This document shows, in pieces, positions 1-26,431 of a DNA stretch of 47,665 nucleotides; position 1 is the first letter of the stretch; each line of letters opens with the position of its first letter. The stretch comes from Gammaproteobacteria bacterium. GTDB taxonomy: Bacteria; Pseudomonadota; Gammaproteobacteria; HK1. The notes beneath the pieces are model-generated. The model saw only the letters and a list, made by a program, of their open reading frames with translations. It was not told the DNA's origin and did not search any database. The DNA lies in the NCBI GenBank assembly GCA_009937425.1, contig JAACFO010000045.1, positions 1 to 47,665 of the forward strand, read 5' to 3'. A program made the translations under genes and the position numbers.

Positions 1-15
1 GGCCTCGACAATCCC

Positions 16-122
16 CCCTCACCCCAACCCTCTCCCCCTGAAGGGGGGAGAGGGGGCACAATTTTCGCCCTAGACCGAAGGGTCCCCCGCTCCCTCGATG
101 GGAGCGGGGACAGGGGTGAGGG
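16..122. repeat. Paired REP-like palindromic modules, inverted
   Basis: Two hairpins lie here: arms 28-38/44-54 (CCCTCTCCCCC and its complement) and arms 85-94/100-109 (CCCCGCTCCC). They are enclosed by an outer inverted repeat, CCCTCACCCC at 16-25 against GGGGTGAGGG at 113-122. Each hairpin therefore carries a CCCTCACCCC tail, and the two modules face each other like a bacterial interspersed mosaic element. The same tail-plus-hairpin unit recurs at about 27637, 27891 and 27946. It lies upstream of the first gene and contains no gene. The family name is my inference; the symmetry is seen directly. Confidence 0.8.
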
Positions 123-292
123 TGAAAAAAAGGAGCCTCCAACGAAGCCCCCTCCTCCAACCGCTCTCCACCCAGACCGCTGCAACCCCCAATGTGACCC
201 CCATTGCACCCCGGAACCATTGCGGTCCTCCAACCCCTAAAGGAATGCCGGTTGTATGTCGTTATTAAAGGTCAATCGCCAGGAATTCCACC
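123..292. other. Leader region of the first gene, C-rich
   Basis: This gap is pyrimidine-rich, with C runs around 150-240, and has no convincing sigma70 promoter. A Shine-Dalgarno-like AGGA at 281-284 precedes the ATG at 293. No small gene is supported here. Confidence 0.4.
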
Positions 293-1228
293 ATGAGCGT
301 TGCAACACACCCGGAACTGGACAGTTTTGCCCGCACCAATGCCATAGACGGGCTTACGGAGCCGAGCCTGCGCGCCATCGCCGAGGGACGCGAAGGCTAC
401 AGCATCGAAGCAGCACGGCGTTTTCTCGCATTTCAGACCCGTATCGACGCCGAGCTTCTCAAACACCCGATCATTACCGACAATGCCTATACGGCATGGT
501 TCGAGCACGGTCAGAAAAGCCATGAGCAGATCATGAGCTTCATCGTGCAGTTCTCTGTGTTCTCCAACCAGTTTCTGGTTGCCCAGCTGCAGAAAACCCT
601 CAATGCCGACACCCTCGAAGGCATGCGCGCATCCAAGGAGATCCTCGCCAACGAGATCGGCGTGGTCTTCAACGCGCCCGGCAAAAGAACATCGGATGTC
701 ACCGAATCCGAGAGCCGGGGCGACGCGGAACTCGTCTCCACCGAAGGCAGCGTGGACGGTGGTGTGTTCCGCTTTCGCGCCGCGCATTTCGAGTGGCTGC
801 TGCGCATCGCTGAAAAGCTCGGGCTGCGATTCCATGACATGGGGCGGCGCATCCACGGCACGGAAACCACCTTGTTCTTCTGTGACGAACTGATCCGGCT
901 CTACGGCAGTGCGGATTACATGATCTCCCAGTCCGCCAGCTACGCCGTGGAGAACTGGGCCGCGGCGGGATTCTGGGATCAGCTCGTTACCGGTCTGGTC
1001 AAATACAACACACAGATCGAATCGCCCCTGCCGTTGGCGTTTTTCACCTGGCACGCCCGCATAGAAGGCCAGCATGCGCAACATACCCAGGAAGAGTTGG
1101 AAGAGCTTTATTTCGACCGCGAGGTGGAGGAAGACGCATTCATCGAAACGGGCAACGAAATGCTCGACGGTGTAGCGGCTTTCTGGAACGGTCTGGACGA
1201 GCAGCGCCGGCGCATCGCCGCCATCTAG
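293..1228 (+). CDS. Heme-oxygenase-like diiron (HDO) family redox enzyme
   Basis: A 311-residue, mostly helical protein that I place in the heme-oxygenase-like iron redox enzyme superfamily (CADD, UndA and SznF types). Near the C-terminus, H254-x3-E258-x2-H261 matches the H-x3-D/E-x2-H metal signature of that fold. E220 in an ENWAAAGFW helix and E71/H77 in EHGQKSH are candidates for the other ligands. A DGGVFRFRAAHFEW stretch sits in the middle. The start is fixed by AGGA 8 bases upstream. It is followed 84 bp later by a tryptophanase on the same strand, so an amino acid or an indole-type product is a possible substrate. The reaction is unknown. The superfamily call is moderately sure, while the ligand assignment comes from spacing only. 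Confidence 0.72.
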   Translation: MSVATHPELDSFARTNAIDGLTEPSLRAIAEGREGYSIEAARRFLAFQTRIDAELLKHPIITDNAYTAWFEHGQKSHEQIMSFIVQFSVFSNQFLVAQLQKTLNADTLEGMRASKEILANEIGVVFNAPGKRTSDVTESESRGDAELVSTEGSVDGGVFRFRAAHFEWLLRIAEKLGLRFHDMGRRIHGTETTLFFCDELIRLYGSADYMISQSASYAVENWAAAGFWDQLVTGLVKYNTQIESPLPLAFFTWHARIEGQHAQHTQEELEELYFDREVEEDAFIETGNEMLDGVAAFWNGLDEQRRRIAAI

Positions 1229-1250
1229 TCGGCCCACTTAGTCGGCCCAC
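1226..1250 (+). repeat. 13-bp-period direct repeat over a stop codon
   Basis: TAGTCGGCCCAC occurs at 1226-1237 and again at 1239-1250. The first copy contains the TAG stop of the preceding gene, and the second gives another in-context TAG. It looks like a slippage duplication at the gene end. Confidence 0.75.
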
Positions 1251-1262
1251 GTGTTCGGCAAG

Positions 1263-1278
1263 GGCCCCTGAAGGGGCT
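1263..1278 (+). terminator. Short GC hairpin upstream of tnaA
   Basis: GCCCC (1264-1268), loop TGAA, GGGGC (1273-1277) with a possible G-U closing pair outside. There is no T tract, so it may be a weak attenuator or an mRNA-processing hairpin rather than a true terminator. It lies 35 bp before the tryptophanase start. I see no TnaC-like leader peptide with the expected Trp codon. Confidence 0.3.
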
Positions 1279-1312
1279 ATGATCGGGGAGTATCCACTAC
1301 CCCGGTTACTCC

Positions 1313-2686
1313 ATGCGCACCATTATCGAGCCCTTTCGCATCAAGGCGATCGAGCCTATTCGCATGACCTCCCGGGATGAGCGCGAAAAGCTCATCCAGG
1401 AAGCGGCTTACAATGTTTTCCTCCTGCCCGCCCGCGATGTTCTCATCGATTTGCTGACCGACAGCGGCACCGGCGCCATGAGTGCCGCACAATGGGCGGG
1501 AATCATGCGCGGCGACGAATCCTACGCCGGTAGCGACAGCTACTATCGCTTCGAGAATGCCGTTAAGGACATTTTCGGTTTTTCCCATGTTATCCCCACT
1601 CACCAGGGGCGCGCCGCGGAACGGATTCTATTCAGCACCGTTTGCAGCACCGGGCAAACGGTGCCCAGCAACAGCCACTTCGACACCACGCGGGCGAATA
1701 TCGCCTATGTGGGCGCCGAGCCGGTGGATCTGCCCTGTGTCGAATCGAGAGTGTTGGCCGATCCACATCCCTTCAAGGGCGATATGAACCTGGAAGCGTT
1801 ACAACACCTGCTGGAGCAATGCGAACCGGGCAAGGTGCCCCTTGTCATGTTGACCATCACCAATAACTCTGGAGGTGGTCAACCGGTTTCCATGGCCAAC
1901 ATCCGCGCCACATCGAAGATCTGCCGCAAGCACAAGGTGCCCCTGTACATCGACGCCTGCCGTTTCGCCGAAAATGCCTACTTCATCAAGCAGCGGGAAC
2001 GCGGCTATGAGGACGTCGCCCTCATCGATATCGCCCGTGAGATGTTTTCCTGCGCTGACGGCTGCACCATGTCGGCGAAGAAAGACGGCATGGCGAATAT
2101 CGGCGGCTTTCTCGCAAGCAATGACGAGCAACTGACGCGGGAGGAACGCAATTTACTGATCCTCACCGAAGGCTTTCCGACCTACGGCGGTCTTGCCGGT
2201 CGCGATCTGGAAGCCATTGCGGTGGGACTCTACGAAGCACTGGAGCTCGACTACCAACATTACCGAATCATCTCCACTGAGTATCTTGGCCAGCACATCG
2301 CCGCCGCCGGCGTACCCATCGTGCAACCTCCCGGCGGCCACGCCATCTACATCGATGCCGCCAGCTTCTGCCCGCAAATTGCCCCGCTGGAGTATCCCGG
2401 CATCACCCTGACCGTAGAGTTGTACCGGGAAGCCGGCGTTCGCGCCGTCGAGATCGGAAGCGTCATGTTCGGCAGCGTCGATACCGAAAGCGGGCAGGAG
2501 CAACCGGCCCCGAATGAGCTCGTGCGCCTGGCCATTCCGCGGCGTGTTTACACCCAAAGTCACATCGATTACGTGGTCGAGGCGATCGTCAACGTATTCG
2601 AAAGAAGAGACGCGCTGAAGGGCTATCGCATCATCGAGCAACCGGCATTGCTGCGACATTTCAGCGCACACTTTGCGCCACTCTAG
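1313..2686 (+). CDS. tnaA: Tryptophanase (tryptophan indole-lyase)
   Basis: A PLP-dependent beta-eliminating lyase of 457 residues, predicted to split L-tryptophan into indole, pyruvate and ammonia. The N-terminus EPFRIKAIEPI, the LLTDSGTGAMS segment and IPTHQGRAAE match the tryptophanase/tyrosine phenol-lyase family. The PLP lysine is K257 in MSAKKD. Three positions that separate the two enzymes all favour tryptophanase: D124 (Thr in tyrosine phenol-lyase), I381 (Arg there) and H449 in LRHF (Phe there). The conserved N-terminus supports the ATG at 1313 although no good ribosome site precedes it. It sits between an HDO-like enzyme and an MFS carrier. A related beta-lyase with another substrate remains possible. 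Confidence 0.85.
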   Translation: MRTIIEPFRIKAIEPIRMTSRDEREKLIQEAAYNVFLLPARDVLIDLLTDSGTGAMSAAQWAGIMRGDESYAGSDSYYRFENAVKDIFGFSHVIPTHQGRAAERILFSTVCSTGQTVPSNSHFDTTRANIAYVGAEPVDLPCVESRVLADPHPFKGDMNLEALQHLLEQCEPGKVPLVMLTITNNSGGGQPVSMANIRATSKICRKHKVPLYIDACRFAENAYFIKQRERGYEDVALIDIAREMFSCADGCTMSAKKDGMANIGGFLASNDEQLTREERNLLILTEGFPTYGGLAGRDLEAIAVGLYEALELDYQHYRIISTEYLGQHIAAAGVPIVQPPGGHAIYIDAASFCPQIAPLEYPGITLTVELYREAGVRAVEIGSVMFGSVDTESGQEQPAPNELVRLAIPRRVYTQSHIDYVVEAIVNVFERRDALKGYRIIEQPALLRHFSAHFAPL

Positions 2687-2699
2687 GCAAGCAGCCGAG

Positions 2700-3923
2700 A
2701 TGAATCGCAGGGACGCGACGGGGGCACCGGCAAATAACGATCACCTGATCGGCATCGCGTTCGGATTGGGCCTTGCCTTCCTGGCCGCCTATCAGCAATT
2801 CAAGCTTCCCGTGGTGCTCCCCGTGCTGCTGGCGGACTACAGCTACGACCGGACCCTCGCCGGCGGCTTCATGTCCATTTACGGCTTCTTCGGCCTGTTT
2901 CTTTCCATTCCCCTCGGACGCGCCATTGAGCGTCACGGCGCCGCGTCGCTGATCGCGTGGGCGCTTCTACTGATGGTCCTCGGTAACGGGATCGGGCTGT
3001 TCAGGCCGGAGTCCGGCTGGCTGATGCTGACCTCCCGGGGACTCGAAGGCATTGCATTCGCGGTGCTCGCCATCGGCGGGGCGGCGCTTGCCAACGCCAA
3101 CGCGAGCCCGCGTTCGCTGCCGCTGGTGGCCGGCTTAATGGCCACCTGGATCCCCGTGGGTCAGCTCTCGGCTACTGTTCTCGCGCCCATCGCCATCGCC
3201 ACCAGCAGCTGGCGTATGCTGTGGTACGTGGGCATCGGTGCAACAGCGCTGTTTTTCCTCTGGACAATCATCAACCGCATTTCCGGAAGCGTCGTTCTCA
3301 CACCACCTGCTAGCGTCGCCACGGACAAGTCCGGCGCGAGCACGGACATCACACCCCGTGAACGGCGCGGGCTGATTCTGACCGCGCTCCTGTTCATGCT
3401 CTGGTCCGGGCAGTACTTCGCTTATATGACCTGGTTGCCCCAGTATCTGGTGGAAGTCCACGGACTCGCTATTACCCAGGCCCAGTGGGGTTACGCCATA
3501 CCCGTGAGCCTGGTGATGGTGGTCTGCGTGGTTACCGGCCTGCTGCTGCAGCGGGGACTTTTTTTAGGCACGCTGCTGGTTAGCGCACTCATCACCCAGG
3601 CGGCGGTCTGGTGGCTGCTGCCTTTTACCGGCGGTGGTATCAGCGGCATTGCGTCGCTGGTTGCATACGGAGCCGGGGCCGGGGTGGTGCCCGCATGCTT
3701 GTTCGCCTTACCGAGTGTTATTCTGCAGCGCGGACACAATACGGCGCGGGCCTTCGGCATCGTCATGACCGGTCGCAACATGGGCGTACTCATCGGCCCG
3801 GTGCTGGTGGCGCAAGCCTTCAAGATGACCGACAGCTGGGACCTGGCGGCACCGATATTCGGCACGGTCACCAGTCTATGTCTGGTCACGGCTATTCTGT
3901 TGGCGAGGCAACTGCACCGATAA
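2700..3923 (+). CDS. MFS transporter
   Basis: A major facilitator superfamily carrier of about 407 residues with roughly twelve hydrophobic segments. Helix 1 is IAFGLGLAFLAAY, followed by the loop IPLGRAIERHG, the usual basic loop between helices 2 and 3, and a hydrophilic central loop near residues 205-230. I chose the ATG at 2700, 13 bp after the tryptophanase stop. A TTG at 2673 in the same frame would overlap that gene. Its place in the run suggests import of the lyase substrate (a tryptophan-like amino acid) or export of its product, but the direction and substrate cannot be seen. Confidence 0.85.
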   Translation: MNRRDATGAPANNDHLIGIAFGLGLAFLAAYQQFKLPVVLPVLLADYSYDRTLAGGFMSIYGFFGLFLSIPLGRAIERHGAASLIAWALLLMVLGNGIGLFRPESGWLMLTSRGLEGIAFAVLAIGGAALANANASPRSLPLVAGLMATWIPVGQLSATVLAPIAIATSSWRMLWYVGIGATALFFLWTIINRISGSVVLTPPASVATDKSGASTDITPRERRGLILTALLFMLWSGQYFAYMTWLPQYLVEVHGLAITQAQWGYAIPVSLVMVVCVVTGLLLQRGLFLGTLLVSALITQAAVWWLLPFTGGGISGIASLVAYGAGAGVVPACLFALPSVILQRGHNTARAFGIVMTGRNMGVLIGPVLVAQAFKMTDSWDLAAPIFGTVTSLCLVTAILLARQLHR

Positions 3924-3941
3924 ACCGGAGCCTGCACATCG

Positions 3942-4661
3942 ATGCAGACCAACCTCCACATTCAAGCCATCACCTTCGACGCCGCCGGCACCCTTATCCG
4001 AGTCGCCGAACCCGTGGGTGAGACCTACGCGCGCATCGCCAAAAACATAGGTGCAAGCTTGTCGCCGGCGGCACTGGATGCCGCTTTTCGTGACGTGTTC
4101 CCAAGCATGTCGGCCATGGCCTTCCCGGGTCTGGACGAAGCGTCGATTGCCGATGCCGAACGTGCCTGGTGGCGGCAGCTGGTGGAGCAGGTCGTCCGGC
4201 ACGCTGGTGGTGTCAGCGAATTCGACGCGTACTTCGAGGCGCTGTTCAACCACTACGCCAGCGGCACCGCCTGGCGGGCGTATCCGGAAACCCACCGGGT
4301 ATTGAAATCGGTGCGCGCGCGGGGCTTAGGCGTTGGCGTGGTTTCCAATTTCGATTCGCGCCTGCCGCCGATACTGCGGGAACTGGGCATCGAGAGCTTG
4401 GTCGACAGCGTGATTTATTCCACCGGTTGTGGCGCCGCCAAACCCGACGTGCGCATTTTCCAGCACGCGATGCGCGCCCTGGGATCCACGCCGGAGACCA
4501 CGCTGCATGTGGGAGACAATCTTCGCGCCGATTACCATGGCGCTTCCGGGGCCGGAATGACGGCTGTATACCTGAATCGGAGGAAACAACCTGCCCCACC
4601 AGACATACCGAGCGTCCGGGATCTGAGCGAGCTCGAGGCCTTTATCGTCCGGGGTCGGTAG
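3942..4661 (+). CDS. HAD-superfamily hydrolase, atypical motif I
   Basis: A 239-residue HAD-IA type protein. Motif I is FDAAGTL, with nucleophile D13. The second acidic residue of the usual DxDGT motif is replaced by A15, which removes the general acid/base and resembles HDHD3-like members. Motif II is VVSNFDSR, the motif III lysine is in GAAKPDVRIF, and motif IV is HVGDNLRADYHGA. A helical cap lies between motifs I and II. It starts 18 bp after the MFS gene and is probably the last gene of the 293-4661 run. Phosphatase activity is doubtful given A15. Confidence 0.8.
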   Translation: MQTNLHIQAITFDAAGTLIRVAEPVGETYARIAKNIGASLSPAALDAAFRDVFPSMSAMAFPGLDEASIADAERAWWRQLVEQVVRHAGGVSEFDAYFEALFNHYASGTAWRAYPETHRVLKSVRARGLGVGVVSNFDSRLPPILRELGIESLVDSVIYSTGCGAAKPDVRIFQHAMRALGSTPETTLHVGDNLRADYHGASGAGMTAVYLNRRKQPAPPDIPSVRDLSELEAFIVRGR

Positions 4662-4715: not shown

Positions 4716-5633
4716 TCAAACGGCAGTTTCCGCTGCCGCCGCCTCTTCGATGATCCATTCCCGGAAAGCGGCGATGCGCGGCTCGTCCGCCAGCCCCTCC
4801 GGGCACACCATGTAGTAGGCGAAAGACATACGCGAGCCGTAGGCGAATGGCCGCACGAGCCGCCCCTCCTTGAGATCGTTGCCGGCGAGAACCCGGCTAC
4901 CGAGCACCACGCCCTGTCCATTCACCGCCGCCTGCAGGGCCAGACTCGTGTGGCTGAAATGCAGCCCCCGGCGGACCTCGATATCCCCTATTCCCGCCGA
5001 GTGTAGCCACATGTTCCAGTCCGGCCAGTAATCATCCTGGGCATAGCCGTCCACGTGCAGCAGCGTATGCCAGTGCAAATCGTTGAGCTCGCGCAAGGGA
5101 TGTTCTGCGTCCAGAAGGCGCGGACTGCAGACGGGAAAAACCTCTTCGGACAGCAGGCAATCCACACGCATGCCGGGATAGTCCCCCAGCCCGTAGCGCA
5201 GGCCCACGTCCACATCGTCGTGGACCAGATCGACGATGCGATTGTCCGCATCCAATCGTATGTCGATATCCGGATGCAGCACCCGGAAGCGCTCCAGGCG
5301 CGGCATCACCCAGGTAGCGCCGAAAGACGGCGGCATGCTTACCGTCAGAGGGCGATTGAGGTCTCGGCGACGAAAAGTCTCCACCACCTCGGTGACCCGG
5401 TAGAAGACCTCGCTCAGACCGGGCAACAGGGACTGTCCCGCGGGGGTCAGCTGTAATGCCCGGTTCAATCGGTCGAAAAGCACGCTGCCCAGGTCGTGTT
5501 CCAGGGCCTTCACCTGGTGCCCAACCGCCGCCGGAGTGACGTGCAGTTCCTCGGCGGCCTTGCTGAAGCTCAAGTGGCGCCCGGCGGCCTCGAAGGCGCG
5601 CAAGGCGTTGAGTGAAGGTAATCGTGATGGCAT
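4716..5633 (-). CDS. LysR-family transcription regulator, GcvA type (1)
   Basis: A 305-residue LysR regulator. The winged HTH covers roughly residues 4-63 (LPSLNALRAFEAAGRHLSFSKAAEEL, written here as its start LPSLNALRAFEAAGRH). A LysR effector domain follows from about residue 90. The LNALRAFEAA start is typical of the GcvA subgroup, so I start at the ATG at 5633 rather than the in-frame ATG at 5729. It is divergent from the DUF1127 gene at 5771 and convergent with the HAD gene ending at 4661. By family habit it should regulate itself and its divergent neighbour; the inducer is unknown. Confidence 0.9.
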   Translation of the reverse strand: MPSRLPSLNALRAFEAAGRHLSFSKAAEELHVTPAAVGHQVKALEHDLGSVLFDRLNRALQLTPAGQSLLPGLSEVFYRVTEVVETFRRRDLNRPLTVSMPPSFGATWVMPRLERFRVLHPDIDIRLDADNRIVDLVHDDVDVGLRYGLGDYPGMRVDCLLSEEVFPVCSPRLLDAEHPLRELNDLHWHTLLHVDGYAQDDYWPDWNMWLHSAGIGDIEVRRGLHFSHTSLALQAAVNGQGVVLGSRVLAGNDLKEGRLVRPFAYGSRMSFAYYMVCPEGLADEPRIAAFREWIIEEAAAAETAV

Positions 5634-5678
5634 TGGATCCACTAAAGAAAACCTATTCTGAGCTGAAAGAAAGATCGT

Positions 5679-5706
5679 TTGTAGATTTAGCAGATAAGTC
5701 CATAAT
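5679..5706 (+). promoter_or_regulatory. Candidate promoter for the DUF1127 gene
   Basis: TTGTAG at 5679-5684 and CATAAT at 5701-5706 are separated by 16 bp in an AT-rich divergent region. The -10 fits five of six bases and the -35 is weak. Downstream at 5733-5748 lies an imperfect dyad, GTGTCG-AT-TACGTCAC, that could be an operator. Confidence 0.3.
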
Positions 5707-5770
5707 TTGACTATAGATAATGCCTTCAAGAAGTGTCGATTACGTCACATTTTATGAAAGGAAATATAGC

Positions 5771-6031
5771 ATGAATACGAACACAATTCGGATTGGCGCG
5801 GATCTCGGGGTGGAAACTTCCCGGGCACGGCCACGAATCTCCGATTTCAGCGGATTGCTGACCTGGGCGAAGGGCCGCGTCGCGGCAGTGGACCGGGTCA
5901 GGCAGCGGCGCCGGGCTATCAGCGAGCTGGTCCGGATGTCCGATGCACGCCTGGCGGATCTGGGGATTCCGCGGGGCCAAATCCCGGAAGTCGTGGACGG
6001 ACTGATCGCCCGGGAAGGACCCGGCATCTAG
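5771..6031 (+). CDS. DUF1127 (YjiS-like) small protein
   Basis: An 86-residue protein. Its C-terminal half is a DUF1127 domain: basic RQRRRAISELVRMSD, then ARLADLGIPRGQI. AAAGGAA at about 5757-5763 is the ribosome site for the ATG at 5771. DUF1127 proteins are small cytosolic proteins, several of which bind RNA or modulate phosphate and carbon metabolism; the role here is unknown. The gene is divergent from LysR 1 and meets LysR 2 tail to tail, sharing CTAG at 6028-6031. Confidence 0.85.
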   Translation: MNTNTIRIGADLGVETSRARPRISDFSGLLTWAKGRVAAVDRVRQRRRAISELVRMSDARLADLGIPRGQIPEVVDGLIAREGPGI

Positions 6032-6939
6032 CTGTCGACGCTGGATATCAGCCAGTCGCGAAATCCCGTGACCCGGGGCAGGTTGCTGCTGGCCGCTGGA
6101 TAGACGATGTAATAACCCATGCCGTCCCGCGCTCCAGAATCGAAGGGTTGCACCAGATGACCAGCCGCGATTTCGTCCCCGGTAAGGGCCGTGTGCAGCA
6201 ATCCGACCCCCTGGCCGGCGAGCGCCGCGCTGTAGGCGAGATTGGTATCGTCGAATGTCGGCCCGTGGGCCACATGGGCATTGCCGACACCGGCACCCGC
6301 GAACCAATCCTGCCAGGGGCCATAACTGAAGCTATGCAGCAGCCTGTATTTCAGCAGATCCTCGGGTCGCTCCACGGGCGGACCGTCCTCGAGCAAGCGC
6401 GGACTGCACATGGGCGTGACGGTTCCGGACATCAGCGGGATCGATTCCAGCCCTGGCGCGCTGCCGTCGCCGATGCGCACCACCAGGTCGGCCCCGGCGG
6501 TGCCGGGCTCCACGTCGCTCATCCACGGCGCCTCGTGCAGACGCAAATCCAAATCCGGATGCTCACACCACAGGCGTCCGAGCCGCGGCGCCAACCATCG
6601 CACGGCGAAGGCCGACGTCATGGTGACGTGCAACGGAGCATCGCTTTTCGCCTGCAGCAGGCTGGTCGTCGCCCCATGAATTTGATTGAACGCCGCCTCG
6701 ATGACCGGCAGATACCCACGTCCGGCTGCGCTCAGCCGCACGGCCCGGGTGCGGCGCTCGAACAACGGCATCCCGAGCCATTCCTCCAGAGCCTTCACCT
6801 GATGGCTGATGGCGCCATGGGTGACGTTCAATTCCTCAGCGGCCGCGCTGAAGCTCTCGTAACGGGCTGCCGCCTCGAAGGCACGCAGGGCATTGAGGGG
6901 CGGCAGGCGCCGGCTCACGCTTCGGGTCCACGGGTACAC
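6028..6939 (-). CDS. LysR-family transcription regulator, GcvA type (2)
   Basis: A 303-residue paralogue of the LysR gene at 4716-5633, with the same RLPPLNALRAFEAAAR opening and HTH (residues about 10-70), followed by a GcvA-like effector domain. I use the GTG at 6939; another GTG at 6918 would give a start closer to the usual family N-terminus. Neither has a clear ribosome site. A T-N11-A dyad lies immediately upstream (6941-6957), which fits autoregulation. The stop TAG lies in the CTAG shared with the DUF1127 gene. Confidence 0.9.
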   Translation of the reverse strand: MYPWTRSVSRRLPPLNALRAFEAAARYESFSAAAEELNVTHGAISHQVKALEEWLGMPLFERRTRAVRLSAAGRGYLPVIEAAFNQIHGATTSLLQAKSDAPLHVTMTSAFAVRWLAPRLGRLWCEHPDLDLRLHEAPWMSDVEPGTAGADLVVRIGDGSAPGLESIPLMSGTVTPMCSPRLLEDGPPVERPEDLLKYRLLHSFSYGPWQDWFAGAGVGNAHVAHGPTFDDTNLAYSAALAGQGVGLLHTALTGDEIAAGHLVQPFDSGARDGMGYYIVYPAASSNLPRVTGFRDWLISSVDS

Positions 6940-6940
6940 A

Positions 6941-6957
6941 TGTGAGAAATTCTAACA
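6941..6957. promoter_or_regulatory. LysR-type operator (T-N11-A dyad)
   Basis: TGTGAGAAATTCTAACA has dyad symmetry TGT-x-AGAA-x-TTCT-x-ACA, with mismatches only at the x positions, and contains T-N11-A. It sits one base upstream of the LysR 2 GTG and about 90 bp upstream of the divergent small ORF. That is where an autoregulatory LysR site is expected. Confidence 0.6.
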
Positions 6958-7044
6958 TATCTGTGAGGAAGGATCCTTTGTCAGGTAGCTGAATTATCTC
7001 TACAGTTTCAATACACGCAACTTATATACATGAGGAATTTACAC

Positions 7045-7269
7045 ATGTTCACCACCGTTATGTACGGCTTCATCAACGAAGTCACACGCCAGCCCGCCAG
7101 CGCTGAAATCCCTTTAGTTGCGACCCGCCGTGCCAGGCAGAGACATTCGCTGACGCGTTCCGGGCACAAGAGCCGGCAGGCCGCCAAGCCCAGCCAGCGT
7201 CAAGTGAAATTGCCCGGCACGTACCGTGTATTCGCCGACAGCTTCAAGCGTGCCGCCGGTTTTAACTGA
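7045..7269 (+). CDS. Small basic protein, unknown
   Basis: A 74-residue Arg/Lys/Gln-rich protein (for example RRARQRHSLTRSGHKSRQ), ending in GTYRVFADSFKRAAGFN. I do not recognise a family. GAGGA at 7032-7036 lies at the right distance for the ATG at 7045, better than the in-frame ATG at 7030. It is divergent from LysR 2 across a LysR-type operator, the same arrangement as DUF1127 with LysR 1. Its composition suggests nucleic-acid binding, which is inference. It could be a spurious ORF, but the ribosome site and context support a real gene. Confidence 0.55.
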   Translation: MFTTVMYGFINEVTRQPASAEIPLVATRRARQRHSLTRSGHKSRQAAKPSQRQVKLPGTYRVFADSFKRAAGFN

Positions 7270-7298
7270 GAACGCATTTTTCTGCAGCGATCAGCTCA

Positions 7299-7325
7299 CA
7301 GGGACAGATTTCAAATCTGTCCCTG
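7299..7325. repeat. Perfect palindrome at the hyuB 3' end
   Basis: Thirteen-base arms (CAGGGACAGATTT and its complement) flank a single central base. The hyuB stop (TCA on the plus strand, 7311-7313) lies in the centre, so the last residues of HyuB are encoded by the palindrome. The sequence resembles the AAATC-TGTCCCTG repeats often seen near REP-associated tyrosine transposases. It can also act as a hairpin terminator for hyuB and for the gene ending at 7269. Confidence 0.75.
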
Positions 7326-9032
7326 ACGCAGGCGATTGGTGGCCTTCTCGTCTACCGCGCCGTCGGCAGTGAGCACCACACCATAGTCGCGCTCCGCGGC
7401 TTCGCGGCTCACCAGTTCGTTCACCACGTCGTCGCGCACGCGTTCTGCGTCCCGCGCGAGTGGGTTCCCGAAACCACCGCCGCCGGGCATCTCCATGATC
7501 AATCGATCGCCACCGGGAACCTGTTGCCGCCCCTTGGCGCGCAGTTCCGTCCCCGATGCCAGGCGCACGCGCCCGTTCAAGCCACTGGCGCCACCGCTGC
7601 GCCCGCGGGCTGGATAGGTCACCCGGTCGAACATGGACGACATGGCAAAGGACGCACCCTCGCCGTTGGAAATCTCCATCACTTGACCGGTACCACCACG
7701 GTGCTCGCCGGCGCCGCCGGAATCCGTGCGGTACTCCTTGCGCCACACGATGATGGGCGAGATGGCCTCGTTGATCTCCACCGGCGTATTGCGTACCCCC
7801 GAAGGGAATGCGGTGGCCGACAGACCGTCGCTGTTGGGACGTGCGCCGGTGCCGCCGTTGTGGAAAAGGGTCACGGTAAAGGGCGTGGCGTCGACGAACT
7901 TCCCGGATATCCCGTGGCCCGCATACAAAACTGGATTCCACAGGCACGAGGTACCCTCGGCGGGCACGCGGCCATCCACCGCCTGCTCGAGGCAACCGAG
8001 CACCACGTCGGGAAGCATCTGGCCGATGGCGTGACGCGCCGCCACGGCACAGGGATGGGGAGCATTGAGAATCGAACCTGGCGGCGCGCTGACCCGCACC
8101 GGCTCCAGGGAGCCTGCGTTGTTCGGTATCGACCCGCCGACAACGCAGCGGGCGCCGAATGACGCATAGGCTTGTGTATAGGTCACCGGCACGTTGATGC
8201 CGTAGGTCGAGATCGCCGAGGTACCCGTGAAGTCGATGTCGATGCCGGTCTCGGAAATGGTCATGGCCGCCACCAGATCCACCGGCTCCTCGTAGCCGTC
8301 GATGCGCATGCTGTTGCGATAGGTACCGGCGGGCAGCTTGCGGATCTCTTCCAGCATGGAGTCCCTGGAACTCGCGATGACGAAATCGCCGAGGGCGCGC
8401 ACGTCGTCGAGATCGAACTCATCCATCATCTCCACCAGACGCTGGCATCCGGTCTCGTTGCACGCCGCAAGCGAATAAAAGTCGCCTTCCACCTGCACCG
8501 GCTCGCGCACGTTGGCGCGCACGATTTCCAGCAACGACTCGTTCATCACACCGCGGGAGGCGAGCCGCATGAGAGGGATGTAGATCCCCTCCTCGTAGAC
8601 CTGCCGGCCATCGGGACCAAAGCCCAGACCACCCACATCCACCACGTGACTGGTGGAAGCAAACAGCGCCACCATGCGGCCGTTTTTGAACGTCGGCGTG
8701 ACCACAGTGAAATCATGCAGGTGGCCGGTCCCCATCCAGGGATCGTTGGTGATGTAGACGTCACCCTCTTTCATGCTGGAAGCGGGAAACTTTTCGAGGA
8801 AAAAACCCACCGATGCCGCCATGGCATTCACGTGTCCCGGCGTTCCGGTAAGCGCCTGGGCCAGCATGCGGCCGTTGAGATCGAACACACCGGCGGACAA
8901 ATCACCGGCCTCGCGCACGGTATTGGAAAATGCCGTGCGGATGAGGGTTTGCGCCTGCTCCTCGACTACCGCGATCAGCCGGTTCCACATGAGCTGGTTG
9001 TGAATTTGCGCAAGCGGTGAATTGGCTTTCAT
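7311..9032 (-). CDS. hyuB: Hydantoinase B / oxoprolinase-type subunit
   Basis: A 573-residue HyuB family protein, the partner of HyuA in ATP-dependent N-methylhydantoinases, 5-oxoprolinases and related carboxylases. Family segments include NRLIAVVEEQAQTLIRTAFS at the N-terminus, DVYITNDPWMGTGHLHDFTV, and a glycine-rich PGGGGFGNPLARD close to the C-terminus. It starts 14 bp after hyuA with AGAGGCAGC as ribosome site, so the two are translated together. The substrate is a cyclic amide or similar compound; sequence alone does not separate hydantoin from 5-oxoproline. The C-terminal residues RQGQI come from the repeat at 7299-7325. Confidence 0.92.
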   Translation of the reverse strand: MKANSPLAQIHNQLMWNRLIAVVEEQAQTLIRTAFSNTVREAGDLSAGVFDLNGRMLAQALTGTPGHVNAMAASVGFFLEKFPASSMKEGDVYITNDPWMGTGHLHDFTVVTPTFKNGRMVALFASTSHVVDVGGLGFGPDGRQVYEEGIYIPLMRLASRGVMNESLLEIVRANVREPVQVEGDFYSLAACNETGCQRLVEMMDEFDLDDVRALGDFVIASSRDSMLEEIRKLPAGTYRNSMRIDGYEEPVDLVAAMTISETGIDIDFTGTSAISTYGINVPVTYTQAYASFGARCVVGGSIPNNAGSLEPVRVSAPPGSILNAPHPCAVAARHAIGQMLPDVVLGCLEQAVDGRVPAEGTSCLWNPVLYAGHGISGKFVDATPFTVTLFHNGGTGARPNSDGLSATAFPSGVRNTPVEINEAISPIIVWRKEYRTDSGGAGEHRGGTGQVMEISNGEGASFAMSSMFDRVTYPARGRSGGASGLNGRVRLASGTELRAKGRQQVPGGDRLIMEMPGGGGFGNPLARDAERVRDDVVNELVSREAAERDYGVVLTADGAVDEKATNRLRQGQI

Positions 9033-9046
9033 TGCTGCCTCTACTA

Positions 9047-11140
9047 TCAGGTGGCCGGTGCGCCGCGCCGTTCCAGGATGATATATCCGCGCCCGTCGAT
9101 GTGCGCATCGAAATCCGGAGCCACCACCGTGGTGGTCTGGGATTCGCTGACGATGGCCGGACCCGGGATACGCATGCCGGGTGACAAGCTGTCCCGGGCA
9201 TACACGGGCACCTTCTCGTAATCCGCTGTGCGCGTATTGAAAAGCTTGCGCGTCCCGTTGGCCGCCGGCGCGCCACCAACCGTCGCCGGCTCTGCCACCG
9301 GCCGCGGGTCATCCACCGGCCCCGTCAACGTCAGCGCCCAGGTCAACACCTCCACATCCATGTCGGGAATAGTGCGCCCGTAGAATCGCGTATAGGTCTC
9401 ATCGAATGCCTGCTGCAGCGTCTCTGCATCCCGGGTCTCCAGTTGCCGCAGAGGCAGGGGAACGCTGACTTCGTGTCCCTGCCCCACGTAACGCATGTAC
9501 GCGACCCGCTGTTCATGGAGATCGTCACCCGGCGCTCCCAGGCGCACGACCGCTTCGGCCTCTTCACGCATGCCGTCGAACATGCTGCTGATAGTCGCCG
9601 CATCGAGGGCACTCAAGCGCATATACCGGCTGCGCACGACCTCGTAAGAAACCGGGGCATTGAGGAAACCAACCGCCGAGCCAACACCGGCATCGGTGGG
9701 GACGATAACCGTGGCAATCCCCAGCTTCTCGGCAAGCCGCGCGGCATGCACCGGCGCGGCGCCGCCGAAGGCGATCAAGGCGCGCCCTCCGAGATCCTTG
9801 CCGCGCTCGATGGCGTGCACCCGGGCCGCATTCGCCATGTTCTCATCCACCACCTCACTGATGGCGAAGGCCGCCAGCGGTGAATCCAGATTCAACACTT
9901 CGCCCACGTCGGCGCTGACCGCCGTGCGTGCACGCTTGCCATCGAGCTGCATGCTGCCGCCGGCGAAGCCGTCCGGATCGATGCGCCCCAGCAGCACATC
10001 GGCATCGGTTACCGTGGCGCGGGTGCCGCCGCCGCCGTAGCAGGCGGGGCCGGGTTCGGAACCGGCGCTTTCCGGGCCGATATTGATGCGCTTCAAACCG
10101 TCTACCCGGGCGATGGAGCCGCCGCCGGCACCGATCTCCACCATTTCGATCACGGGTATGCGCAAGGGCAAGCCGCTGCCCTTGGTGAAACGGTAAATAC
10201 GGTCCACCTCGAAGGTGCGCGAGGACTGCGGCTTGCCATCGTCGATGAGGCAGATCTTCGCCGTGGTACCGCCCATATCAAAAGACAATACCTGGTCGAG
10301 CCCCTGAGCGATGGCGATACGGCTGGCGAGTATTGCGCCGCCCGCGGGGCCCGACTCCACCAGGCGGATGGGGTGGCGTGCGGCGGTCTCCACGGTGGTC
10401 AAACCACCGCCCGATGTCATCAACAGCAGCGGACAGGAAAAGCCGGCGTCTCTGAGACGCGCATCCAGGCTCCGCACATAGCGCGCCATGATCGGTTGCA
10501 CGTACGCATTGGCGCAGGCGGTGGAGAGGCGTTCGTACTCGCGGATCTCGGGGCAAGCCTCGGAAGAGAGCGTCACGAGAAGCTCCGGCAGAGCCCTGGC
10601 GATGCGCTCGGCGACCTGTTCCTCGTGGCTGCTGTTGGCGTAGCAATGCAAAAGACCGATGGCGACACTCTCCACTGCGTGTTCCTCGAGCTTGACAATC
10701 ATCGCATCCACGGACCCGAGATCCAGTGGCACAAGAACCTTGCCCAGGGCATCGACACGCTCCGTTACCGGCAAACGCAAATATCTCGGCACCAACGGTT
10801 TGGGCTTCTGCACCTCGATGTCGTACTGCTCGAAGCGATTCTCGTAGGCCATCTCAACGGAATCACGGAAGCCTTCGGTGACAACCAGGGCGGTGCGCGC
10901 ACCCTTGCGCTCGATGATGGCGTTGGTGGCCAGCGTGGTACCGTGAATGACCACGCCCACATCGCCGGCATTCACCCCCGCCGCCTCGATGACCCTGGCG
11001 ATACCCGTCATGACGCCCTCTTCCGGCGCCGATGCCGTCGTCAGCACTTTGCTGGTCACGTTCTTGTCGCCGATGGCAAGGGCAACATCGGTGAAGGTGC
11101 CGCCGATATCGACGGCAAGCCGGGTGGAAGAATTACTCAC
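9047..11140 (-). CDS. hyuA: Hydantoinase A / oxoprolinase-type subunit
   Basis: A 697-residue ATP-binding subunit of the hydantoinase/oxoprolinase family, with an ASKHA-type phosphate loop AVDIGGTFTDVAL at residues about 9-21. HGTTLATNAIIERKGAR and LLMTSGGGL follow, then SFDMGGTTAKICL, a second phosphate motif. It is expected to use ATP to open a cyclic amide together with HyuB. The start is a GTG at 11140 preceded by AGGA. It lies 38 bp after the lipoprotein gene on the same strand. The nearby liv-type importer and DUF1445 protein suggest uptake and breakdown of a lactam-like or amide compound. Confidence 0.93.
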   Translation of the reverse strand: MSNSSTRLAVDIGGTFTDVALAIGDKNVTSKVLTTASAPEEGVMTGIARVIEAAGVNAGDVGVVIHGTTLATNAIIERKGARTALVVTEGFRDSVEMAYENRFEQYDIEVQKPKPLVPRYLRLPVTERVDALGKVLVPLDLGSVDAMIVKLEEHAVESVAIGLLHCYANSSHEEQVAERIARALPELLVTLSSEACPEIREYERLSTACANAYVQPIMARYVRSLDARLRDAGFSCPLLLMTSGGGLTTVETAARHPIRLVESGPAGGAILASRIAIAQGLDQVLSFDMGGTTAKICLIDDGKPQSSRTFEVDRIYRFTKGSGLPLRIPVIEMVEIGAGGGSIARVDGLKRINIGPESAGSEPGPACYGGGGTRATVTDADVLLGRIDPDGFAGGSMQLDGKRARTAVSADVGEVLNLDSPLAAFAISEVVDENMANAARVHAIERGKDLGGRALIAFGGAAPVHAARLAEKLGIATVIVPTDAGVGSAVGFLNAPVSYEVVRSRYMRLSALDAATISSMFDGMREEAEAVVRLGAPGDDLHEQRVAYMRYVGQGHEVSVPLPLRQLETRDAETLQQAFDETYTRFYGRTIPDMDVEVLTWALTLTGPVDDPRPVAEPATVGGAPAANGTRKLFNTRTADYEKVPVYARDSLSPGMRIPGPAIVSESQTTTVVAPDFDAHIDGRGYIILERRGAPAT

Positions 11141-11805: not shown

Positions 11806-12033
11806 GTGTTCAATCGGTACGCCTGTCAGCCGGAATCGGCGATAGTATAAAGACTGTGGGGTCGAATATCAGCGCTCAGGTCGACGCGCTCTCAATCTTC
11901 GTCGCGCCGTATGCATCGATTCGCTTCTTGCCATGAGTGCAACAATAGATGGCCGCTGCTGAGAGATGACTTACAGGCGAATTACAGATGGCTCATACCT
12001 GGGCGGGAGAATCCCACGGATCGATGGTATAAA

Positions 12034-12879
12034 ATGACTCTCGAGCCTGCAGCCGACACCGGTATTCCCATGGCCAGAGCACTATCCGAAAGCCCGGCGC
12101 TGCCCGTCGACTCCGTCGACGCCCGGCGGCTGATCCGCTCCGGCGCCCATACCGGCCACACGGCGGCCATGGCGCCGGCATTCGTGCAGGGAAATCTGTG
12201 TATTCTGCCCTCGGAGTACGCCACCGACTTCGCGGCCTTCTGTCAGCGCAATCCCAAACCCTGCCCGCTCATCGGCACCAGCGCCGCGGGGGATCCCCGT
12301 CTGCCAGCGCTGGGCGAGGACCTGGACATACGCACGGATGTCCCCGGCTACCACGTGTACCGCGACGGCCGGCTGGTGGACGAGCCAACGGATATCACCG
12401 CGTATTGGCGCGATGACCTGGTGAGCTTCGTGCTTGGATGCTCGTTTTCTTTCGAGCAGCCGCTCATGGAGGACGGCATTCGGCTGCGCCACATCGAGCG
12501 CGGTGACAACGTCGCCATGTACAAGACCAACATCGATACCGTCGCCGCGGGACCGTTCAGCGGCAAGATGGTGGTTTCCATGCGGGCGCTCTCTCCGGCC
12601 GAAGCCATCCGCGCCATTCAGGTGACCTCACGCTATCCGAATGTGCATGGTGCACCGATACACATCGGCTTACCGGAGCAAATCGGTATTGCAGATGTGG
12701 AAAAGCCTTTCGCGGGAGATGCGCCGAAGATGGCCGAAGACGAGATCCCGGTGTTCTGGGCCTGCGGCGTGACACCCCAGGTCGCCGTGGAGCAGGCGCG
12801 GCCAAGCCTGTGCATCACCCACAAACCGGGCAGCATGATCATTACCGATCTAAAGAATCGGGAACTGGCAGACGGTTAA
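12034..12879 (+). CDS. Putative hydro-lyase, DUF1445 (YcsI) family
   Basis: About 281 residues. [65 protein letters not shown] and [14 protein letters not shown] are typical of DUF1445. In animals this domain is fused to D-glutamate cyclase, an enzyme of the D-glutamate/5-oxoproline route. I choose the ATG at 12034; the ATG at 12070 gives 269 residues, also within the family range, and the frame stays open back to 11911. It ends 4 bp before livF on the opposite strand. With hyuAB nearby, a role in 5-oxoproline or cyclic-amide metabolism is plausible but unproven. Confidence 0.85.
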
Positions 12880-23668: not shown

Positions 23669-25036
23669 ATGAAGGCAAGTGAGGTTCGCACCAGCGAGGA
23701 TGCCCGTCGCATTGTCGAGCAGCGAGAGCTCAGTCACGTCAAGGTCGGCATATTCGACATGGACGGGATCTTGCGCGGCAAGTACATGTCTCGTGACAAG
23801 TTCTTCTCTGCCCTGGACTCGGGCTTCGGCTTCTGCGACGTGGTGCTCGGCTGGGATCCCCATGATCAACTCTATGACAATGTCAGCTATTCGGGCTGGC
23901 ACAAGGGCTATCCCGATGCGCCGGTGCGCATTGTTCCCGAGTGTTGCCGCGAGCTGCCCTTCGAAGAGGGCGGGCTGTTTTTCATGGCCGAGTTCGCCCC
24001 ACCCGCCGACGAGTTGTGTCCCCGCCACTTGTTGCGACGGGTGTTGGGCCGCGCCGCCGATATGGGTTTGAAGGCCTACGCCGGCTTCGAGTACGAATTT
24101 TTTGTCTTCAACGAAACCCCGAACACGGTTCGCGAGAAAAACTATCGCGATCTCGAGCCGATGGCGCCGGGGTTTTTCGGCTATTCGGTTCTGCGAAACA
24201 CCGTGCACTCGGACTTTTACCGGGATCTCCTCGCGCTCGGCGAAACCATGAATTTCCCCATCGAGGGCCTGCACGAAGAGACTGGGCCGGGGGCCCTGGA
24301 GGCGGCCATCACCGTGGATGAAGGGCTGAGTGCCGCGGACAAGGCGTCGCTGTTTAAATCATTCACGAAGATTTTTGCCCAGCGCCGAAACATGATGGCG
24401 ACCTTCATGGCCAAGTGGTCGCCGGACTGGCCCGGGCTGGGCGGTCATATTCACCTGTCGCTGCAGGATGCCGCGGGCACGGGTGTGTTCCATGACCCCG
24501 GCAAGCCCGGCAACATGAGCGATAGCATGCGTCACTTCGTCGCTGGGCAGCAAAGACTCATGCCTGAACTGCTGGCCATGATCGCGCCCACCGTCAACGC
24601 CTTCACGCGGCTGATCCCCGGTTTCTGGGCCCCAACCGACGCCAGTTGGGGCGTGGACAACCGCACTTGCGCCCTGCGGGTGATCAGCGGCAGCGAAAAG
24701 TCCCAGCGGGTGGAATTTCGCATCGGCGCAGCGGACGCGAATCCCTATATTATTCTGTCCGCCGCCCTGGCGTCGGGATTGTGGGGCATTGAGAACAAGG
24801 TGGAGCCCGAGGCGCCGGTGCAGGGCAACGCCTATGAGAAGAAGTTTCCCCGGCGGCTCGCGCTGCCGCGCACACTCTGGGAAGCAGCCCAGGCTTTAAA
24901 GACATCGAAGATGGCACGGGAGTGGTTCGGCGACGCCTTCGTGGATCACTACGTCGGCTCCAGGGAGTGGGAGGAGCGCGAGTTCCGCAAACACATCACG
25001 GATTGGGAAATGCAACGCTATTTCGAGATTATTTAG
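23669..25036 (+). CDS. Glutamine-synthetase-like gamma-glutamyl ligase
   Basis: A 455-residue member of the glutamine synthetase family, closer to PuuA or glutamyl-amine ligases than to housekeeping GlnA. Metal and ATP motifs are visible: YAGFEYEFFVF, EETGPGALEAAI, GGHIHLSLQD, and a substrate/phosphate segment VDNRTCALRVISGSE plus RVEFRIGAADANPY. These ligases use ATP to join glutamate to an amine. Its ribosome site (GGGAGGA) lies inside the preceding gene. It is coupled to aldehyde and alcohol dehydrogenases, which suggests a gamma-glutamyl route for an amino alcohol or amine. Confidence 0.9.
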   Translation: MKASEVRTSEDARRIVEQRELSHVKVGIFDMDGILRGKYMSRDKFFSALDSGFGFCDVVLGWDPHDQLYDNVSYSGWHKGYPDAPVRIVPECCRELPFEEGGLFFMAEFAPPADELCPRHLLRRVLGRAADMGLKAYAGFEYEFFVFNETPNTVREKNYRDLEPMAPGFFGYSVLRNTVHSDFYRDLLALGETMNFPIEGLHEETGPGALEAAITVDEGLSAADKASLFKSFTKIFAQRRNMMATFMAKWSPDWPGLGGHIHLSLQDAAGTGVFHDPGKPGNMSDSMRHFVAGQQRLMPELLAMIAPTVNAFTRLIPGFWAPTDASWGVDNRTCALRVISGSEKSQRVEFRIGAADANPYIILSAALASGLWGIENKVEPEAPVQGNAYEKKFPRRLALPRTLWEAAQALKTSKMAREWFGDAFVDHYVGSREWEEREFRKHITDWEMQRYFEII

Positions 25037-25039
25037 ATC

Positions 25040-26431
25040 ATGACTGACTACCTGAAATGCATTAGTCCGGTGGACGGCAGCGTGTATGTGGAACGCCCGC
25101 TGGCGAGTGACCACGATGTCGCCGAGGCCCTGGCGCGGGCCCGCGACGCGCGGAACAGCTGGGGCCGGATGCCGGTGGAGGAACGCTGTGCCCTGTTGGG
25201 CAAAGCCGTGGACGCCTTCGTCGCCCAGGGGCCGGCCATCGCTGAGGAAATAAGCTGGCAGATGGGCAGGCCCGTGGCACAAAGCCCCGGGGAGATCGGC
25301 GGATTCGAGGAACGCGCCCGCCACATGCTGGCAATCGCCCCGGAAACCCTTGCCGACGTCGCCGTGGCACCGAAAGAAGGCTTTACGCGCTTTGTCCGGC
25401 GGGTTCCCGTGGGCGTAGTGTTCGTCATCGCGCCGTGGAATTTTCCCTACCTGACGGCGGTAAACTCCATCATCCCGGCACTGGCCGCGGGCAACACCGT
25501 GTTGCTGAAACACTCGGCCCAGACACCGCTGTGCGCGGAGCGCTTCAGCGAAGCATTCAAAAAGGCGGGGCTGCCGGCGGGCGTGTTCCAGCACCTGCAT
25601 CTTGGCCATGGGTCGGCACTCGGGCTCATCGAAAGCGATGGGGTCGATTTTGTTGCCTTCACGGGATCGGTGCCGGCCGGACACGCCGTACAGCGATCCG
25701 CAGCCAAGCGCTTTATCGGTGTTGGACTCGAGCTGGGCGGCAAGGATCCGGCCTATGTGCGCGCCGATGTGACCGTTGAGCACGCTATCGAAAATGTCGC
25801 CGATGGGGCCTTCTTCAATGCCGGGCAATCCTGCTGCGGTATAGAGCGCGTGTATGTGCACGAAGCGGTCTACGACAGCTTCGTCGAGGGGATCGTGGAG
25901 CTGGTAGGCGGTTATCGCCTTGGCAATCCCATGGATACCGACACCACCCTCGGGCCCGTGGTGAAAGCCAGCGCCGCCGAGCACGTGCGTTCCCAGATTG
26001 CCGAGGCGGAAGCCGCCGGCGCCAGGGCGCTGATCGATCCGGCGAAATTTCCCGCCGGTGTCGACGGCTCGGCATATCTGGCGCCCCAGGTCCTGGTGGA
26101 CGTGGATCACGGCATGCGGGTGATGACCGAGGAAAGCTTCGGGCCGGTGGTGGGCATCATGAAGGTAAGCTCCGACGAGCAAGCCATCTCTCTGATGAAC
26201 GACAGCGAGTTCGGACTGACGGCGTCGGTGTGGACCAATGACGAGACCTCGGCACTCGCCATCGGTGAGAAAATCGCCACCGGCACCTGGTTCATGAACC
26301 GCTGCGACTACCTGGATCCTGCGCTGGCCTGGACCGGCGTCAAGAATTCCGGACATGGTTGTACTTTGTCGCGGGTTGGTTACGAGCAACTGACGCGGCC
26401 CATGTCGTTTCATCTGCGGACAAGAATATGA
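25040..26431 (+). CDS. NAD(P)-dependent aldehyde dehydrogenase
   Basis: A 463-residue ALDH superfamily member with VIAPWNFPYLTAVN, the TGSVPAG cofactor motif, LELGGKDPAYV with the general-base Glu, and NAGQSCCGIERVYV with the catalytic Cys. ESFGPVVGIM and a LSRVGYEQLTRP tail complete the fold. It begins 4 bp after the ligase gene and shares ATGA with the alcohol dehydrogenase gene. In this trio it would oxidise a gamma-glutamyl aldehyde to an acid, which is inference. Confidence 0.93.
   Translation: MTDYLKCISPVDGSVYVERPLASDHDVAEALARARDARNSWGRMPVEERCALLGKAVDAFVAQGPAIAEEISWQMGRPVAQSPGEIGGFEERARHMLAIAPETLADVAVAPKEGFTRFVRRVPVGVVFVIAPWNFPYLTAVNSIIPALAAGNTVLLKHSAQTPLCAERFSEAFKKAGLPAGVFQHLHLGHGSALGLIESDGVDFVAFTGSVPAGHAVQRSAAKRFIGVGLELGGKDPAYVRADVTVEHAIENVADGAFFNAGQSCCGIERVYVHEAVYDSFVEGIVELVGGYRLGNPMDTDTTLGPVVKASAAEHVRSQIAEAEAAGARALIDPAKFPAGVDGSAYLAPQVLVDVDHGMRVMTEESFGPVVGIMKVSSDEQAISLMNDSEFGLTASVWTNDETSALAIGEKIATGTWFMNRCDYLDPALAWTGVKNSGHGCTLSRVGYEQLTRPMSFHLRTRI

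Follow-up and report, generated by a model that had tools for sequence, protein, structure and literature searches.

The first gene of the 47,665-nucleotide stretch of DNA analysed here, referred to as the window (contig JAACFO010000045.1 of assembly GCA_009937425.1 from a Gammaproteobacteria bacterium, positions 1-47,665 of the forward strand), encodes a putative heme-oxygenase-like diiron oxidase (HDO), and we propose, with a probability of about 0.6, that this protein is a pterin-independent phenylalanine 4-hydroxylase, which would take the place of PhhA and feed the homogentisate pathway, with lysis of tryptophan added in this organism. Bacterial phenylalanine hydroxylation is attributed to pterin enzymes; a replacement of PhhA is predicted because HDO genes lie among genes for tyrosine breakdown and occur in genomes that almost never possess PhhA. 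On balance, and with slightly less assurance, this widespread HDO family seems to supply methanotrophs and many other bacteria with their missing phenylalanine hydroxylase, one that needs no pterin: a predicted diiron enzyme displacing PhhA in the homogentisate operon. The HDO enzymes would thereby gain their first member in primary amino-acid catabolism and their first hydroxylase of an aromatic ring. Within the open-licence PMC literature, nothing was found that links a heme-oxygenase-like, diiron, or pterin-independent enzyme to phenylalanine hydroxylation, or heme-oxygenase-like proteins to homogentisate.

In a scan of named genomes, 219 places encode a relative of the window HDO, and the best 80 were kept as loci with flanks of up to 8 kb, many of them shorter and frequently on short contigs. 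At least one of the four homogentisate-pathway genes hppD, hgd-like, fahA, and maiA lies near HDO in 57 of these 80 loci, and all four do so in 35. HPPD is encoded nearby in 53 loci, the HGD-like protein in 50, FAH in 45, MAAI in 39, acetoacetyl-CoA synthetase in 15, tryptophan 2,3-dioxygenase in 7, and PhhA in none. Clear hppD-hgd-fahA-maiA-HDO operons are present in four loci (L100, L101, L103, and L104). HPPD passes its Pfam and NCBIfam models and MAAI its equivalog cut-off, and the HGD-like protein (378 amino acids) matches HgmA_N and remains below the TIGR01015 cut-off. Such short HGD-like proteins of about 378 residues (L012:5104-6240, L108:7568-8704), scoring below the HmgA equivalog cut-off, are common beside HDO and PhhA alike. 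HPPD is present in all 47 HDO genomes tested, being marginal in one of them (G088).

The PhhA domain PF00351 was detected in 1 of 50 and in 0 of 31 HDO genomes (1 of 81 in total). Among 370 genomes of the class that are at least 90% complete, 55 possess PhhA, 10 possess HDO, and none possesses both. As a matched control, genomes of the class with a strong match to the same HGD-like gene were considered (n = 15), and PhhA is absent from all eight that encode HDO, whereas it is present in six of the seven that do not (Fisher p 0.0014), and in two of these six it stands first in the same operon. Where a canonical HmgA occurs without HDO (44 genomes), PhhA is found in 27. PhhA occupies the corresponding operon position in some genomes, heading a same-strand hppD-hgd-fahA-maiA run in G386 and G041 and closing the homogentisate operon in G375 and G395.

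In the sister genome (G001, locus L011), the genes run on one strand in the order hppD-hgd-fahA-HDO-tnaA-MFS-HAD, with hppD at 4818-5873, an hgd-like gene in two overlapping frames at 5875-6854, a short fahA at 6927-7799, and HDO at 8001-8936. In the window genome itself, the last three genes of another contig (G000:C300) are hppD, hgd-like, and fahA, and this contig stops 53 bases past fahA in a repeat-like tail ('CTCTCCC...') resembling the start of the window. Because fahA directly precedes HDO in the sister genome, positions 1-292 of the window likely correspond to the gap between fahA at the end of that contig and HDO; the two contigs are unjoined and their continuity is taken from the sister genome. 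The two contig ends (window positions 1-292 and the end of L108) have similar G+C-rich, repeat-like tails, which probably caused the assembly to break. The window cluster is most likely the downstream part of an operon for the catabolism of aromatic amino acids that the end of the contig interrupts, and the homogentisate context was hidden from the initial annotation since the window starts at that end, between fahA and HDO. The four same-strand genes which that annotation had described are all confirmed as open reading frames on the plus strand, and the co-directional set is kept in the sister genome, where the MFS relative shares 69% identity with that of the window and a HAD relative is encoded as well. 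Co-occurrence of the four genes in other genomes, to which the idea of a shared pathway had been tied, holds for the sister genome, the only other place where the set is directly seen, and not for the remaining 79 of the 80 named HDO loci, many of which lie on short contigs; relatives of the window lyase, MFS, and HAD proteins are encoded near HDO in 1 of 80 loci, all of them in L011.

The AlphaFold2 model of HDO (pLDDT 89.0) displays a heme-oxygenase-like helical fold, and Foldseek and VIA-align match it to CADD, BesC, FlcD, HrmI, and UndA, in agreement with the enzyme class to which the protein had initially been assigned. Assigned by pattern and helix position, the predicted metal ligands are E121, H165, E220, H254, E258, and H261, a 3-His/3-carboxylate set on the core helices with HxxxD/ExxH in the last. 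All six residues are invariant in an alignment of 82 HDOs, and among the 120 best homologues H165, H254, E258, and H261 are conserved in 120 each, E121 in 119 (with one gap), and E220 in 118. Hence the H-x3-E-x2-H spacing noted in the initial annotation stands, as does its ligand E220, whereas E71 and H77, which it had named as further ligands, are rejected since these positions vary (conserved in 73 and 81 of 120 homologues, respectively), E121 and H165 being conserved instead. HDO reaches 22.9 bits with the CADD model TIGR04305, far short of the cut-off of 200, and it lacks the PF00351 domain, so that a PhhA-like function is claimed and not PhhA identity. When a profile of the 82 HDOs was compared with solved structures, none proved significantly related in sequence, the best match (E 0.079) being an unrelated xylanase. 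One search retrieved 4636 homologues of the family, and the names given to HDO relatives in databases are 'PQQ biosynthesis protein C' or hypothetical.

Several observations weigh against a role of HDO in phenylalanine hydroxylation. No gene for an electron donor is recognised in the HDO operon, and the excerpted text of the 2026 HDO review (PMC13108848) describes no hydroxylation of an aromatic ring by an HDO. None of the four pathway genes lies nearby in 23 of the 80 loci, partly on short contigs, and the Oligoflexia genome G088 combines HDO with a marginal HPPD match only. Moritella PE36 possesses both HDO and PhhA, the latter away from the HDO operon. PhhA is also absent from 17 of the 44 canonical-HGD genomes without HDO and from the HDO-less genome G140, so that a missing PhhA alone is weak evidence. 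Judged by coordinates on contigs that are often short, PhhA lies beside HGD in 4 of 33 HDO-less pathway genomes that possess it and not in the other 29. On the tree of HGD-like proteins (58 rows), HDO and PhhA each undergo at least four changes, and a test of independent pairs provides two supported pairs, one pointing the opposite way and one showing no difference (p 1). With so few independent events, the Fisher values overstate the exclusion between HDO and PhhA, which could reflect a few old events. Nor does tyrosine biosynthesis add support: 9 of 54 HDO genomes have no TyrA, but prephenate dehydratase is missing in all nine.

A function of HDO as a tyrosine-biosynthesis enzyme was also considered, and the TyrA pattern is uninformative in this respect because all nine TyrA-less HDO genomes are also without prephenate dehydratase. 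The genomes in which neither enzyme was found are G088, G098, G099, G442, G443, G445, G453, G455, and G461; they may belong to auxotrophs, be incomplete, or employ another route. A search of 22 genomes detected prephenate dehydratase in 5, whereas all 14 controls have it. The window genome has two prephenate dehydratase genes (G000:C247 and G000:C73), and so have G001 and G007.

The lyase encoded next to HDO scores 677.3 bits with the NCBIfam 'tryptophanase' subfamily PRK13238 (cut-off 285), remains below two TnaA equivalog cut-offs (545.7 versus 750 and 501.4 versus 825.8) and below that of tyrosine phenol-lyase (530.4 versus 720.7), and is classified as tryptophanase-type and not as TnaA because only the broader PRK13238 model was passed. 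It combines the Beta_elim_lyase fold and the pyridoxal phosphate lysine with the residues D124, I381, and H449, which the initial annotation had rightly taken as tryptophanase-defining: in HMMER alignments the corresponding residues are T, R, and F in tyrosine phenol-lyase 1c7g and identical D, I, and H in 8sij ('Tryptophanase 1'). D124 and H449 are conserved throughout the 120 best homologues, of which 115 have I and 5 have V at position 381. As judged from these residues, the enzyme likely splits tryptophan. The differences from TnaA consist in the scores below the equivalog cut-offs, whereas fold family as well as catalytic and specificity residues are alike.

The initial annotation placed HDO and this lyase together in a route for a tryptophan- or indole-derived compound, which now appears improbable. 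The two genes do adjoin in the window as well as in L011. In 11 cases, moreover, the longest contigs recorded for an HDO and a lyase database entry agree exactly in length, an indirect hint, short of proof, that the pair is found again in metagenomes. Tryptophan 2,3-dioxygenase is encoded near HDO in 7 of 80 loci (L013, L015, L024, L041, L045, L046, and L050), so that tryptophan breakdown joined the HDO neighbourhood in another form, and the HDOs AetD and SktA act on brominated tryptophans, according to the excerpted review (PMC13108848). However, a relative of the lyase is found near HDO in 1 of 80 loci as opposed to homogentisate genes in 57, the sister operon begins with hppD-hgd-fahA, strong matches to both HDO and lyase occur in the sister genome only among 55 relatives, and phmmer with the window HDO retrieves no AetD chain at E<=1. 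As a conserved pair, HDO and tryptophanase are rejected beyond the genus-level group. The accompanying statement that no pathway with this combination had been described overlooks the synthesis of aetokthonotoxin, in which, as far as the excerpts of the report go, AetD, an HDO, and AetE, a tryptophanase, take part in one pathway (PMC10654658). That pathway resembles the present case in this respect, and it differs in starting from brominated tryptophan, whereas the window HDO family is situated with homogentisate genes.

Alternatively, HDO might act at another step of the homogentisate pathway, for example in the oxidative deamination of tyrosine to 4-hydroxyphenylpyruvate or as an accessory to HPPD or the short HGD-like enzyme. 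We regard this as rather unlikely, though less so than the tryptophan route. The strong link of HDO to hppD and hgd-like genes would fit, no aminotransferase is recognised in the HDO operons L100-L104, and HisC-type aminotransferases lie near HDO in 3 of 80 loci. However, the PhhA-headed hppD-hgd-fahA-maiA operons L139 and L140 are likewise without a recognised aminotransferase, so that the visible difference among the named pathway genes is PhhA versus HDO, and the short HGD-like enzyme works in seven genomes of the class without HDO. It is very unlikely that HDO guards the cell against oxidative stress, similar to Acinetobacter DtpC, and merely accompanies an oxygen-using pathway. Protection by DtpC depends on its HDO-type residues, according to the excerpted report (PMC13232832), but HDO is tightly linked to one catabolic pathway and shows mutual exclusion with PhhA.

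As a phenylalanine hydroxylase, HDO would bind two metal ions, most likely iron, activate O2, and add one oxygen atom to phenylalanine, or possibly to phenylpyruvate, at the para position, the two electrons being supplied by a general donor. Tyrosine would be transaminated to 4-hydroxyphenylpyruvate and degraded via homogentisate to fumarate and acetoacetate, by means of HPPD and the short HGD. In the genus-level group, the tryptophanase-type lyase added beside HDO would likely convert tryptophan to indole, pyruvate, and ammonia, and an operon with HDO and lyase would serve the breakdown of each of the three aromatic amino acids. HDO and PhhA (PF00351/TIGR01267) would share the predicted reaction, the pathway position, and, in some genomes, the operon slot, but their folds are unrelated: HDO has no Pfam match, follows a heme-oxygenase-like model, and is not expected to require a pterin. 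The fold and the 3-His/3-carboxylate pattern with HxxxExxH are shared with CADD/NePabS, UndA, BesC, HrmI, AetD, and SktA, whereas in the excerpted review (PMC13108848) the described HDOs of this type have roles in cofactor or natural-product synthesis, and in the window HDO, the spacing of E121 and H165 is 43 residues and includes an insertion.

Table 1. Features of the window; positions are those of the 47,665-nucleotide stretch.
Feature	Position	Strand	Basis or remark
Contig-end, repeat-like non-coding stretch	1..292		Stops throughout in the one frame translated
HDO, 311 amino acids, heme-oxygenase-like fold (predicted)	293..1228	+	Open reading frame, model, alignments
Tryptophanase-type beta-eliminating lyase, 457 amino acids; D124, I381, H449; K257 = predicted pyridoxal phosphate lysine	1313..2686	+	
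MFS transporter, 416 amino acids, TTG start	2673..3923	+	Open reading frame, Pfam, NCBIfam
HAD hydrolase, REG-2-like subfamily, 239 amino acids, motif I D-A-A-G-T	3942..4661	+	Pfam, NCBIfam
GcvA-type LysR regulator, convergent with the cluster	4716..5729	-	PRK11139 364.5 bits, cut-off 288
GcvA-type LysR regulator, in tandem with the preceding, convergent with the cluster	6028..6939	-	
Hydantoinase B/A pair and D-glutamate cyclase/hydro-lyase-type protein	7311..11140; 11911..12879	-; +	
Glutamine-synthetase-type gene, directly followed by aldehyde dehydrogenase	23669..26431	+	

The lyase and MFS genes overlap by 14 bases. In Pfam, the lyase matches Beta_elim_lyase, the MFS protein MFS_1, and the HAD protein Hydrolase/HAD, and the latter scores 195.8 bits with the NCBIfam model HAD DREG-2 (cut-off 155.2). 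As already pointed out in the initial annotation, the usual second Asp is absent from its motif I, as read from the translation. The MFS and HAD proteins probably play an accessory part, and the nearer of the two LysR regulators may control the cluster. An Rfam search of the window gave no match, and scans for promoters and terminators gave results at chance level. For the hydantoinase pair, the best NCBIfam models are caprolactamase beta/alpha, with scores under the cut-off, and the pair is also encoded 3' of the cluster in L011. The glutamine-synthetase-type gene followed by aldehyde dehydrogenase forms an arrangement known from polyamine breakdown. Among the HDO loci, three (L071, L080, and L082) carry the name of one metagenome-assembled genome, which may reflect an expansion of the gene family or a mixed bin.

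If HDO is indeed a phenylalanine hydroxylase, it would account for the step with which methanotrophs and many Gammaproteobacteria begin to break down phenylalanine, the names 'PQQ biosynthesis protein C' and hypothetical would need correction, and the HDO superfamily would gain a role in primary metabolism together with a new reaction.

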